Of a DNA stretch of 64,000 bases, positions 2,954 to 55,148 are shown in pieces. Each line of letters opens with the position of its first letter. The first letter of the stretch is position 1. The notes beneath the pieces were generated by a model that was not told the DNA's origin, ran no database searches, and saw only the letters and a list, made by a program, of their open reading frames with translations. This stretch comes from Nanobdellati archaeon (lineage in GTDB: Archaea; EX4484-52; GLR71), in the NCBI GenBank assembly GCA_019429125.1, contig JAHYJO010000001.1, forward strand, positions 71,088 through 135,087, given 5' to 3'. The translations under genes were made by a program, and so were the position numbers.

Positions 2954-4150
2954 ATGGCAGTTATAAAGCCCGCACCAACGGAACCGTTCACATTTGTGTT
3001 TGCAGCGGCAGTAGTGATATTTTTTACGTTATTTCTGCTTTTTGGGCAGGAACCTCTAACTGATACAACCTCTGATAATCCCATTACAATATCTGATAAA
3101 GGTGAAATCATATTTTTTGCAGATTCTTTAAATCTTATATCTAATAAGACACAGAGCGCAAGGACTGTTGATTTTGGGGATTTTGATGTGGGTCACATTT
3201 CAAAAGAAAGGATTGTAGAGAGCATTGATTCACTTTTGGTTGAGAAAGGGCTATTTAAATCAGCGTCAAAAGAATTTAGTTTTGATGGCGCAACTCTTGA
3301 AAATGCTCATTTGGTGTTTACTGTTTCTGATACTAATGAGTATGGCAATCTGAGGATATATTTAAATGATAAACCTATTTTTGATAATAAGACTGTCAAA
3401 GGTGCAGAATATACTGTTGAATTTAACAATCTCTTGGCACAAAATTATATCCGTATTGAGAGTCAGTCAAGTGGTATACGATTCTGGGCACCTGCAACTT
3501 ATTTGCTTTCTGATGTGAAAGTTTCTGCTGCATCTTTTGATAATGTTGACAAGATGTACTCATTTATTGTCTATGATTATGAGATGGCTGGTTTTGATGC
3601 TATGTTGAGTTATGAGGTAGGGGCTGGTTCAGTAAGACTTGATGACATGAATGTTGAGATTAATGGAAATGATATCAATAGTGAAAAAAGGCCAATGTTC
3701 GGAATTCTCTATAAGGAAACTTTTGATAGAACTGACGGCGTTATAGCTTCTAAGCCCGATACTAATTACATCAAATTCTTTGCTGATGGTGAGGCAATGT
3801 ATGAGGTTGAGGGTGCACAATTGACAATAACTTATTTTGATTCTGATAAGGCTGCGGTGTCTGAGTATACTGTAGTTATTGATGAAGATACTTATGACAA
3901 GATGGCTAACAAGACAATAGTATTGGAATATTATGCTGATAAAGTGTCAAATGATGCGCTTTTAGATGTCTCTTTGAATGAACAGATGTTCAATCATAAG
4001 ACTGTAGTTTATGAGAACCAGATTGTTTTGAGTCAGGATAATTTCAGGCGTGGCAAGACTAATTTGCTTAAGTTTTCAACTTATGGGATATACAAGATTT
4101 CAGATATTGATATAAGAATAGTTGAAGATAAGAATTTTAAGTTGTTTTAG
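2954..4150 (+). CDS. membrane-anchored hypothetical protein (single N-terminal TM, large ectodomain)
   Basis: 398 aa ORF, N-terminal hydrophobic segment VFAAAVVIFFTLFLLF. Confidence 0.75.
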   Translation: MAVIKPAPTEPFTFVFAAAVVIFFTLFLLFGQEPLTDTTSDNPITISDKGEIIFFADSLNLISNKTQSARTVDFGDFDVGHISKERIVESIDSLLVEKGLFKSASKEFSFDGATLENAHLVFTVSDTNEYGNLRIYLNDKPIFDNKTVKGAEYTVEFNNLLAQNYIRIESQSSGIRFWAPATYLLSDVKVSAASFDNVDKMYSFIVYDYEMAGFDAMLSYEVGAGSVRLDDMNVEINGNDINSEKRPMFGILYKETFDRTDGVIASKPDTNYIKFFADGEAMYEVEGAQLTITYFDSDKAAVSEYTVVIDEDTYDKMANKTIVLEYYADKVSNDALLDVSLNEQMFNHKTVVYENQIVLSQDNFRRGKTNLLKFSTYGIYKISDIDIRIVEDKNFKLF

Positions 4151-4244
4151 GTGTTTTGTTGGGTGATGGAGATATTTACAGGATTGTGTGATTATGTTTT
4201 ATGAGCTGTTTTTTTGTGTTAGTGTTATGATTTGAGGTTTTTGG

Positions 4245-24954: not shown

Positions 24955-25167
24955 TCATTTTAGTTTTTGGACAAATGCATGTTCTGTCTTTTGTGGATTG
25001 TTTAGGCCTATTGGGTTCTTATTGTCATCAACACCTATGATTATCTTTCCCCCTCTGGAATTATAGAATGAGGTTACTAATTGTGCTACTTTTTTTGGGT
25101 TTGATAATATCTCTTTGAACTCTATGTCACTGTTTTCTTCTTGATTTAATAGTTGTTTAAAGTCCAT
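24955..25167 (-). pseudogene. N-terminal fragment of Schlafen AlbA_2-type regulator
   Basis: NSDIEFKEILSNPKKVAQLVTSFYNSRGGKIIIGVDDNKNPIGL is AlbA_2-like; only 70 aa. Confidence 0.75.
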
Positions 25168-25189
25168 GTGTCTATATTGTTTCTTGTGC

Positions 25190-25236
25190 TTGCATATAAT
25201 TGGGTTACAACTGGGGTGGTGATTTTAGGGAGTTAG
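25190..25236 (-). repeat. diverged copy of the 58-bp promoter/operator-like repeat
   Basis: cttgcatataattgggttacaactggggtggtgattttagggagtt versus cttgcctgtatataatttagtgaccacttttggtggtgtatttagggagtt. Confidence 0.6.
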
Positions 25237-25265
25237 AAAAATATTAGAAAAAGAAAAAAGAGGTT

Positions 25266-25679
25266 TTATTTCTTTTTTACTGCCTTAGTGACTTTAGGAA
25301 GTGCTATGACGGGGGGTATTCCTGCCATTTCTGAAAGCATTAGTGCCTTTAGTCCTGCAGTCTTGAAAAGATGGTTTATGATTTCTATGTGTTCTGTCTC
25401 TGGCAGTTTTTTGTTCTTTGTCCATTCGTCCATTATTTTTTTGTTGTCTTCGCCTGTGTATATGATTGTACCTTCTATGTCAAGTTTTGCAACTTCTGGT
25501 TCAAATGTACTTTTGAAACTGAACTTTATGTTTAATATGTCGCTTTTTGTGCCAAATGCGTTGATGTTTCCTTCTTTTACATCTTCAATCTTTGGTACTG
25601 TGTTGATTGAAAGCTTCTGGTTTGTGTTTCCAGTTTTGTTAACATTTAATTTATTGTAGTTTATGCTGATTACACCCAT
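25266..25679 (-). CDS. hypothetical protein (137 aa; possible SecB-like fold)
   Basis: intact ORF with beta-rich core and C-terminal helix; family not recognised with certainty. Confidence 0.6.
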   Translation of the reverse strand: MGVISINYNKLNVNKTGNTNQKLSINTVPKIEDVKEGNINAFGTKSDILNIKFSFKSTFEPEVAKLDIEGTIIYTGEDNKKIMDEWTKNKKLPETEHIEIINHLFKTAGLKALMLSEMAGIPPVIALPKVTKAVKKK

Positions 25680-51879: not shown

Positions 51880-51933
51880 ATTTTAATTGATAATTTTTGA
51901 ATTTAGTTAGTGAGAAATTAAAAAAATAGAAGA

Positions 51934-52060
51934 TGGGCTCGAAGGGGTTTGAACCCTCGACTTCCGGCTCTCCAAGACCAATACTTAGGAAAGCAAGTTC
52001 CGAATTTATGAAACGTGGCCATATAAGACCGGCGCTCCAACCAGACTGAGCTACGAGCCC
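51934..52060 (-). tRNA. tRNA-Ile (UAU) with 52-nt intron at canonical 37/38
   Basis: GGGCTCGTAGCTCAGTCTGGTTGGAGCGCCGGTCTTATA-[51970..52021]-AGCCGGAAGTCGAGGGTTCAAACCCCTTCGAGCCC; mature loop CTTATAA. Confidence 0.85.
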
Positions 52061-52138
52061 TTCTATTAAAAGTTATTGCAAAACCAATATAAAGTTTAGC
52101 AACATTTATCTGATTTAATAGACAATTTTATATATATT

Positions 52139-53053
52139 GTGGCGTTTGGCATGCAAAACTCGGTAATTGAATACATAAAAAAAGGATTAATTGGAAGGGA
52201 TTTTGAGCTTATTCAGTTCGAGCGCTATTGTTTTGATATCGCGGCTAAAAAGAAAGATGCATTTATCCTTATAAAAATTCTTTCAAATGTGGATAGTTTT
52301 TCGAGTGCGCAGGCAGATGACCTTAAAAATATGGGTTCGGCAATAGGGGCTTCACCTGTAATCTGTGGTATTCGTGGTCGTAATTTTAAGATTTCTGAGA
52401 ATTATGTATATGAACGTTTCGGTATATATGTAGTACATCCTGAAACATTTTTGAATTCTTTAGATCTTGTTCTTCCTTTTATATTATCTCGGAAAGGAAA
52501 AAATACAGTTTCAATTGATACTGAGCGCCTTCATGACATAAGGATCCATCTTGATCTATCTTTTCAGAAGATGTCTGGTACAATTGGCGTATCTAAAAAG
52601 ACACTTTATCTTGCTGAGAAAACTGGGCGTACCAGTGATTATGTTGTAGAAGCTATTGAGGAATTGATTAATGAAGTGATACGGCGCCCCGTGGATATAT
52701 TTTCATCAGAGATGCATTTTAGGCAGCGCGAAAAGACTATGTTGGAAAAGAAACTTACACAGATGACTTCTAAGTTTGGTTATTCTGATTTTGTGTTTCA
52801 TACTGCACCCGTAAAAATAGTACTTAAAGCTGATGATGATTCGTGCATGTGTGATGCAGAGTCTAAATTTATTAATGAACAGAAGATGTCAGATCTTAAG
52901 AAATTGAGTGAATTTTGTGATTTTTTACCGGTTGTTATTGTTGAGAACACATCCTCTGAATCATCTTGCGGGATTGCATTCGTTGATATCAAAGAGATTC
53001 GGAAGATTCATTCTAAGAAAGAATTGATTGAACTTATATATGGTAGGATTTGA
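52139..53053 (+). CDS. archaeal HTH transcriptional regulator (COG1395-like)
   Basis: N-terminal FDIAAKKKDAFILIKILSNVDSF; HTH IRIHLDLSFQKMSGTIGVSKKTLYLAEKTGR. Confidence 0.75.
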   Translation: MAFGMQNSVIEYIKKGLIGRDFELIQFERYCFDIAAKKKDAFILIKILSNVDSFSSAQADDLKNMGSAIGASPVICGIRGRNFKISENYVYERFGIYVVHPETFLNSLDLVLPFILSRKGKNTVSIDTERLHDIRIHLDLSFQKMSGTIGVSKKTLYLAEKTGRTSDYVVEAIEELINEVIRRPVDIFSSEMHFRQREKTMLEKKLTQMTSKFGYSDFVFHTAPVKIVLKADDDSCMCDAESKFINEQKMSDLKKLSEFCDFLPVVIVENTSSESSCGIAFVDIKEIRKIHSKKELIELIYGRI

Positions 53054-53159
53054 ATATTTAAGGGATGTTTGTTTAGTATTTAGTGTGTTCAGGTGAAATC
53101 TAATTTGTAAGATTTATGATGAATATTTTTTTATATTTTTGATGGATAATATATAGTTA

Positions 53160-53341
53160 TGTTAGAAAATGCGGAACGCTTTTTTAAGGTCTATTCAGGT
53201 ATTCCAATTGACGAAAGAAGTAAGCCTATAGTAATTATTGATGAGGAACTATAAACTGGAAGTTAATTCATGAAGAGATAAGTAATGAAACTGAAAGGGT
53301 AAAGGCAATTTTGAAAATGTTAATTGAGTTGGAAATAATAT
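53160..53341 (+). pseudogene. small protein, one frameshift (gene A of caspase-like operon)
   Basis: MLENAERFFKVYSGIPIDERSKPIVIIDEE / INWKLIHEEISNETERVKAILKMLIELEII*; single-nt deletion near 53249. Confidence 0.6.
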
Positions 53342-53553
53342 GAGTAACGAAAAAGAGATTTTAATAAAAAGGATAGTAATAGAACGTATTAAAACTATGG
53401 CTCCAAATGTTAAGATTGTATTAGGGGTCTAATGGTGGATTTTTAGATAGGAATGGGTTACTTTTAGAAATTAATAATAATACTGATATAAGAAATAAAA
53501 TTATTGAAATTCAATTAAAATATATGCGTGCGTTGAAGGAAGTTTTAGTATAA
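53341..53553 (+). pseudogene. small protein, one frameshift (gene B); ATGA overlap with gene A
   Basis: MSNEKEILIKRIVIERIKTMAPNVKIVLG / SNGGFLDRNGLLLEINNNTDIRNKIIEIQLKYMRALKEVLV*; extra G in GGGG run. Confidence 0.6.
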
Positions 53554-53555
53554 AT

Positions 53556-54195
53556 ATGAAAACTATATTTTTTGTTAGACCTTGTCATGATTCTGTTACT
53601 TCTTATTTGCATTATTATAGTAAACAATTGTTAAACGAATCAGAGGATAGAGGTTTAAAAACAATAAATAAAGACAAAGAGGATGCAAATAGGGAGGTAG
53701 TAAAGAAGGTTATTAATAAAATAAATCCTGATTTTATTATGTTTAATGGGTATGGTAATCCTACAATGATTTGTGAACATAATAATGACGTGATTATTGA
53801 AAAGGATGATAATCATGATTTATTTAAAGACAGGATAATTTATTCTTTATCGTGTAGTTCTGCATTAGAATTAGATAAAACTGTGGGGGGGTAGCAGTAC
53901 TACTTTTATTGGTTATGTTGATGATTTTGCATTGAGGACGGATAATAATTGTCAAGCTACAATTCATAGAGATAATAGGGCAAATTTATTCCTTGAACCT
54001 TCAAATTTATTGGTTGAATCTATTTTAAAAGGAAATTCTGCAAAAGAAGCAGTTCTAAAGGCAAAAACGTTGATGAGAAGAAATATTTCAATATTGAAAA
54101 CAGATCAGTTTCCCGATGTAAAGGATTATCTCCCTTATCTTTTTAATAATTATTTGATTTTGGATATTATAGGTAATGAATCTGCACGTTTGTGA
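53556..54195 (+). pseudogene. caspase/CHAT-like peptidase, frameshifted in a G7 run
   Basis: PDFIMFNGYGNPTMICEHNN...RIIYSLSCSSALELDKTVGG / SSTTFIGYVDDFALRT...; frames join at 53885-53892. Confidence 0.65.
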
Positions 54196-54203
54196 GTTTC
54201 CCT

Positions 54204-55148
54204 TCATTCTAAAACCTTAATACTATCAACTTTACCATCACCATCAATGTCAAGACCTTCAACTACACAGGCCCAGTTGTCTTCGCCGTTGTATTTTTCA
54301 AGGATTGTTTCTGTGAATCTTGTGAGCGCTAATACGGCAGCTTTTGTTCCGTTTGCTCTGTTTCCTGCAAAGATTAGTATACTTTTGGTTGTGTTTATTG
54401 GGTTTACTATTTTTGCGATGACCCCTATGTTGTCTTCATTATAAGTTTTTCCAGTCTTTTTGGATATTATGCCTCTGAATGGAAACGTGTCTATTTTGAA
54501 TTTGACTTGTAGGTAATTGTTTACATCACTTGTTATTAGATTTGTGAGCGGACCGCCTACGATTATCAGATTGGTGTCTATTGTGTCTTTGGATTTTATG
54601 TCAATGTCAAGCGCTGTTGTGAACTTTTCAGGCATAGATACAATCTGTCCTAGAAATAATGCTACGTCTATTGCGTAATGACCGTCTCTTGCGCGCACTT
54701 GATGGGGTCCGTGAGGGTCGGGTGAGCCTACAACTATATGGGCGTTTAATTGTCCGTTGTTTATGAAGGGATAAAGGAATGATTTTTGCTTTTCAGATTC
54801 ATTTCTCATCGGAAAATCTGCAAGTTTCATGTCGCCGGATGGCAGTTCAAGTGCAAATGCGTTGTTTGTTACTGTATAATATTTCGCGAGAGTACCACCT
54901 TGTTCTTTTTTGCTTTTTACTTCAATGAGACCGTTTGCTTCAAGCTGTTTTATGTGGTAGTAAACTTTTTGCTCGTGAATATGAAGATATTTTGCGATGT
55001 CTGCAGGGTATCTCGGTCGCTCTGCAAGAAGTTTTAGGATTTCCCATCGCGTATTGTTTAGAAGACCTTTTAGTTTTTCAGGTTCATCTACAAGAATTGC
55101 ATCTTTTGAGAAGAATTTGCCGTTAATCTCTTTTATTATCTGTGCCAT
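54204..55148 (-). CDS. ArsR-like wHTH regulator fused to S-layer-like C-terminal domain
   Basis: ILKLLAERPRYPADIAKYLHIHEQKVYYHIKQLEANGLIE; NLIIVGGPLTNLITSDVNNYL; DIDGDGKVDSI. Confidence 0.8.
   Translation of the reverse strand: MAQIIKEINGKFFSKDAILVDEPEKLKGLLNNTRWEILKLLAERPRYPADIAKYLHIHEQKVYYHIKQLEANGLIEVKSKKEQGGTLAKYYTVTNNAFALELPSGDMKLADFPMRNESEKQKSFLYPFINNGQLNAHIVVGSPDPHGPHQVRARDGHYAIDVALFLGQIVSMPEKFTTALDIDIKSKDTIDTNLIIVGGPLTNLITSDVNNYLQVKFKIDTFPFRGIISKKTGKTYNEDNIGVIAKIVNPINTTKSILIFAGNRANGTKAAVLALTRFTETILEKYNGEDNWACVVEGLDIDGDGKVDSIKVLE

Follow-up and report, generated by a model that had tools for sequence, protein, structure and literature searches.

Caspase-fold effectors of prokaryotes are known mostly from large multi-domain bacterial systems. 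In archaea the p20 family of such proteins is rare, with 93 of 11,208 sequences (PMC6426788). The closest tested analogue, in outline, of the three-gene operon described here (A-B-C) is MaOC1, an orthocaspase of a cyanobacterium, which cleaves the antitoxin of an adjacent ParE/ParD-like pair (PMC7935541). The orthocaspases, including MaOC1, have a His-Cys dyad, a catalytic domain and small neighbouring genes in common with A-B-C, whereas C falls below the Pfam C14, C25 and CHAT cut-offs and A and B match no ParE/ParD-like family. C also has its clan CD core in common with SAVED-CHAT of type III CRISPR (PDB 8tl0) and Csx29/TPR-CHAT of Craspase (PDB 8d9h, 7y84), a group that supplies the first- and sixth-ranked solved structures. 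C, however, spans 213-220 aa with neither a SAVED nor a TPR domain, its loci showed no constant CRISPR neighbour, and its partners are two coupled proteins of 60-80 aa. The caspase-bearing NTP-dependent conflict systems with effector-associated domains likewise combine a caspase-like effector with co-occurring partner genes (PMC7159879), but beside A-B-C there is no constant NTPase gene, whether STAND, MoxR, vWA or another. A targeted literature search found no description of A-B-C in DPANN or CPR. The parts are of a known kind (a clan CD peptidase and coupled small regulators), but none of the three families, nor their fixed combination, occurs in the libraries searched.

The window copy and its decay

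The copy from which this study started lies in the window, by which we mean the whole 64-kb stretch of DNA analysed, in a genome of 1.16 Mb and 32 contigs. The earlier note had described a three-gene operon with one break in every gene, and tblastn recovered exactly these split frames: three consecutive reading frames at 53159-54195, coding for A (~60 aa), B (~70 aa) and C (~212 aa), each interrupted once. The features of the copy are as follows.

53159..53342, + strand: remnant of gene A, a small partner of ~60 aa; frame break near 53249-53254; homologues of 59-69 aa lie directly upstream of B in intact loci
53340..53553, + strand: remnant of gene B, a small partner of ~70 aa; frame break near 53426; homologues of 66-86 aa
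53556..54195, + strand: remnant of gene C, a predicted clan CD caspase/CHAT-like cysteine peptidase of ~212 aa; break in a G7 run; fold taken from an intact homologue
53745..53756, + strand: N-G-Y-G, with Tyr (TAT) at the catalytic His position of C; His is invariant in 34 intact homologues
53850..53855, + strand: Ser-Cys, the catalytic Cys position of C, kept; Cys is invariant in 34 intact homologues
53885..53891, + strand: G7 tract where the frame of C is broken; relatives do not share it
53054..54203, no strand: entire insertion, bounded by the stop codons of two conserved genes that converge on it; nothing inserted here in two relatives (G005 and G007)

Residues 1-31 of A are encoded at 53159-53251 (frame 2) and the remainder at 53254-53340 (frame 1), residues 1-29 of B at 53340-53426 (frame 3) and the remainder at 53428-53550 (frame 1), and residues 1-112 of C at 53556-53891 (frame 3) and the remainder at 53881-54192 (frame 1). 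The ATG of B (53340) overlaps the TGA of A, forming ATGA. The flanking genes, at 52139-53053 (+) and 54204-55148 (-), are conserved and convergent. Because the window is otherwise densely coding, with mostly intact genes and 87% of its length in ORFs of at least 100 aa, the damage at A-B-C is local. As a separate observation, the - strand at 51930-52062 resembles, by eye, a tRNA gene with a long intron, and ARAGORN with bacterial settings gives no match there.

Joined window C has NGYG at its first catalytic position and SLSC at its second, while 34 of 34 intact relatives have N-x-H-G; the loss of the catalytic His to Tyr, with the Cys kept, thus stands as first read. Window C departs from the family at five of 21 near-invariant sites, the catalytic His among them, and window B at three of seven such positions, compared to at most two in any other member. 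Sequencing or assembly errors in a copy that is really intact might be suspected, since two of the breaks are associated with G runs, one inside G7 and one next to GGGG. Against such errors, the three breaks fall within 1 kb while the neighbouring genes are open, Tyr replaces an invariant His, and near-invariant positions have changed in both B and C; we regard this explanation as highly improbable for the copy as a whole, although any single break may still be a sequencing error. The phase variation proposed in the earlier note, in the form of a programmed or phase-variable frameshift switch at the homopolymer that sits at the break of C, was rejected and has hardly any chance of being right: the tract is missing from three relatives (L010, L063 and L075), no G run of at least six occurs in 39 C genes, intact ones included, A and B are broken independently, and the catalytic His is lost. 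The decay that the same note proposed is borne out by the breaks in all three genes and by the changed near-invariant sites of C. The window copy of A-B-C is a pseudogene copy, neither an assembly slip nor a phase-variable switch.

Pseudo-orthocaspases also have Tyr for His, as in the window copy, but theirs have in addition Ser for Cys and are bacterial, with none found in archaea (PMC6426788). Since the window copy keeps its Cys and is frameshifted, it is a pseudogene and not a retained pseudo-enzyme. The closest relative of window C is a fragment (L010 in G012) with 73% identity over 78 columns; dN/dS between the two is 0.12, compared to 0.07 for an intact pair, a sign that selection was still at work until a fairly recent time. 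Further copies that are broken or reduced to remnants were found in G012 (two), G017, G033, G180, G286 and L079. At L088:1471-1944 (G012:C1), A and B lie in one open frame with no C nearby; this was considered as a natural A-B fusion and rejected, the locus being a degenerate remnant without C. The best explanation of the window locus is that a mobile three-gene module decayed there in recent times. Decay of this kind is ordinary, and the interest lies in the intact operon.

The intact operon and its hosts

Homologues of joined window C were found in seven other genomes among 151 searched, and a scan of 84,980 species genomes with the C alignment gave 36 loci. Intact A-B-C operons, which the earlier note had suggested looking for in other archaea, are present there, and CPR bacteria have them too. 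The genes are complete in the intact loci of the first search, with 60-65 aa for A, 68-84 aa for B and 213-220 aa for C; over the loci as a whole, homologues of A span 59-69 aa and those of B 66-86 aa. The whole operon occupies about 1 kb. The order A-B-C is found in all 36 scanned loci, allowing for contig ends and one unrecognised A: by HMMs, every locus has B immediately ahead of C, and A is upstream of B save in L054, where the contig starts inside the operon, and L078, which has no credible A; in L071 the contig holds only the end of A. Twelve further loci have A-B-C in the same order. The gaps between the genes are mostly -4 (ATGA) and otherwise an overlap or spacing of up to about 40 bases. 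Of 346 relatives, 18 have C; each of these has B as well, and B is otherwise represented by one lone scrap. The fixed order and the genome-by-genome co-occurrence indicate that A, B and C form one unit, and because the three window frames all match this independent intact operon in other genomes, the observation in the window is far beyond chance.

The archaeal hosts in the scan are of DPANN type (Woesearchaeota, Pacearchaeota, Nanoarchaeota, Aenigmatarchaeota and Nanohalarchaeota), together with two Altiarchaeota-labelled bins and one Methanoperedens bin; the other hosts are nine CPR bacteria and one Omnitrophota bin. As in the gene layout of type II toxin-antitoxin systems, the small genes come first, with overlaps or short gaps, in the same operon. 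No neighbour that points to a function is shared beyond three of 39 loci, and no constant defence neighbour of A-B-C was found, many neighbours being housekeeping genes.

Predicted fold of C and its small partners

N-x-H-G, one Cys and the C-terminal half are conserved across the 34 intact C proteins, and N-x-H-G and the Cys are invariant. Naming C by sequence alone gave nothing usable in Pfam, NCBIfam, PADLOC, PHROGs and PDB, and the joined A, B and C of the window have no match in PADLOC at E up to 1. No C member reaches the Pfam cut-off for C14, C25 or CHAT: one of the 34 members matches CHAT (PF12770), at E 0.01 only, none matches Peptidase_C14, the Pfam caspase family, and the best peptidase match is to C25 (E 0.0023, one member). 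C is thus placed, by its sequence, outside the Pfam CHAT and caspase families as now modelled. The AlphaFold2 model of an intact C (pLDDT 96.2, pTM 0.92) matches, by Foldseek, SAVED-CHAT (8tl0; E 7e-6), caspase-4 (3.5e-4), TPR-CHAT of Craspase (5e-4) and gingipain RgpB (1e-3). The caspase/CHAT-like peptidase named in the earlier note is therefore recovered, as a modelled likeness at the level of the fold. In the model, strand 61-65 leads directly to H67 and strand 95-99 to C101, the arrangement of clan CD peptidases; intact C has the caspase-like alpha/beta fold of that clan with His-Gly and Cys after core strands, the His being absent from the window copy (Tyr). From these model matches, C is predicted to be a minimal clan CD cysteine peptidase.

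The searches made gave no identifiable family, solved relative or fold for A or B, and neither matches a known toxin or antitoxin family. The model of B (pLDDT 86.5) consists of a helix, a beta-hairpin and two helices, without a significant PDB match and with a faint prefoldin-like one (E 0.15). An OmpR-type winged helix was considered for B from a PDB profile match (E 0.22) and rejected, as Foldseek gives it no support. A and B share a faint helical motif in their second halves; cross-profile scores exceed those of shuffles, with 6 of 37 and 6 of 34 above the 99th percentile, and the hhalign probability of A against B is 5.5%. These scores hint that A and B may be very distant homologues or paralogues, and because hhalign is weak, we leave the paralogy as a hint.

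A distant C is also encoded by vir519, a tailed archaeal virus whose host is Methanofastidiosa (L143, BK063666.1 30904-38347; genes 3229-3429 and 3426-4172). It matches the profile at E 8e-18 in a set of 11 proteins, keeps GHG and ALSC and has a hydrophobic C-terminal segment. A single gene of 66 aa precedes it with an ATGA overlap and carries the A/B motif. This arrangement is a hint that the ancestral form may have had a single small partner.

The main functional rival to the reading given below takes A and B as a toxin-antitoxin-like pair that C, as a protease, would trigger by cutting one of the two, as MaOC1 does. It has the same gene content in principle, the MaOC1 precedent (PMC7935541) and the resemblance of A and B to very distant homologues with a common C-terminal helical motif in its favour; however, neither protein matches a known toxin or antitoxin family, their homology is weak, and the viral C has one small partner only. 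We judge such a triggered pair rather improbable.

Proposed mobility and function

In a genome of the same genus (G005) and in one of the same family (G007) the two flanking genes abut, so that the site of the window operon is empty. The same site holds an unrelated 790-bp stretch with an orphan 167-aa gene in G006 and a BRO-N + UvrD-type helicase gene in G001, and a BRO-like + AlbA_2 gene lies near the same flank in G002. The intergenic spot that corresponds to window positions 53054-54203 is variable across relatives (L014, L027, L028, L030 and L043). G001 has a possible scrap of the 3' end of C, a weak match with a score of 23 compared to 22 for the best of 300 shuffles. At L027:2885-3034 (G001:C7:8384-8533) the final 50 codons of the downstream flanking gene occur a second time, about 2.4 kb from the full gene, which might be the scar of a duplication or an integration. 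Elsewhere in the window, at 24955-25679, two short ORFs on the - strand, the first with an AlbA_2/Schlafen-like start by eye, resemble another broken gene.

The tree of C mixes archaeal phyla, and CPR, Omnitrophota and DPANN sequences share a part of it that is poorly resolved. G014 and G311 each have three diverged copies of C. The Methanoperedens C (L067) is identical at 174 of 216 positions (~81%) to one of the three G014 copies (G014:C5), and its operon follows directly after PriL and PriS primase genes (L067:2848-5651), an arrangement as on a plasmid or other mobile element; the Methanoperedens occurrence may also be a binning error in a metagenome-assembled genome. No relative was found among plasmids or in IMG/VR, and the case for mobility is accordingly made from phylogeny, empty sites and copy number, without a known vector. 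Together, the patchy spread, the mixed phylogeny, the presence of up to three diverged copies per genome and the many broken copies suggest that the module is mobile and of a conflict or toxin-antitoxin-like kind.

We therefore propose, as a reading that is on balance probable, that A-B-C is such a module, in which a small clan CD peptidase is held or aimed by A and B and, once released by a trigger, stops growth. Intact copies would encode C, a small soluble clan CD cysteine endopeptidase with a CHAT/caspase fold and a His-Cys dyad, on the same message as A and B, which would be translated first and be coupled to C. A and B would most likely bind C or its target, and in this way restrain or direct the enzyme. 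Infection, the loss of the operon or some similar trigger would then free the peptidase, which would cut cell proteins and so stop growth. The module would spread horizontally and be easily lost. It may have a role in self-defence, cell suicide or cell arrest, which the distribution of the loci would fit.

C could instead be a non-conflict regulatory protease of ultra-small cells that matures or degrades a cellular or surface protein, for example one involved in attachment to a host; A and B would then serve as chaperones or adaptors. Many DPANN and CPR are thought to live on other cells, and A-B-C is concentrated in their genomes; purifying selection (dN/dS 0.12, and 0.07 for the intact pair) and the faint, non-significant prefoldin-like match of B would also agree with this role. 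Yet C is present in only 18 of 346 relatives and has been repeatedly lost or multiplied, it turns up as well in single bins of Methanoperedens and Omnitrophota and, in a distant form, in a virus, and no signal peptide is evident in C by eye. We consider a regulatory role of this kind unlikely.

Within the reading of A-B-C as a mobile conflict module, we tentatively suggest, short of calling it probable, that it represents an undescribed, horizontally mobile protease-effector module of ~1 kb common to DPANN archaea and CPR bacteria, both of them radiations of ultra-small cells. A minimal caspase-fold enzyme would here be controlled by two tiny and possibly homologous proteins, with no NTPase or nucleotide sensor, in a much reduced caspase-type system of cell arrest that has a relative in an archaeal virus. 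If true, A-B-C would be among the simplest conflict modules based on a protease, and one that even streamlined genomes have repeatedly kept and lost.
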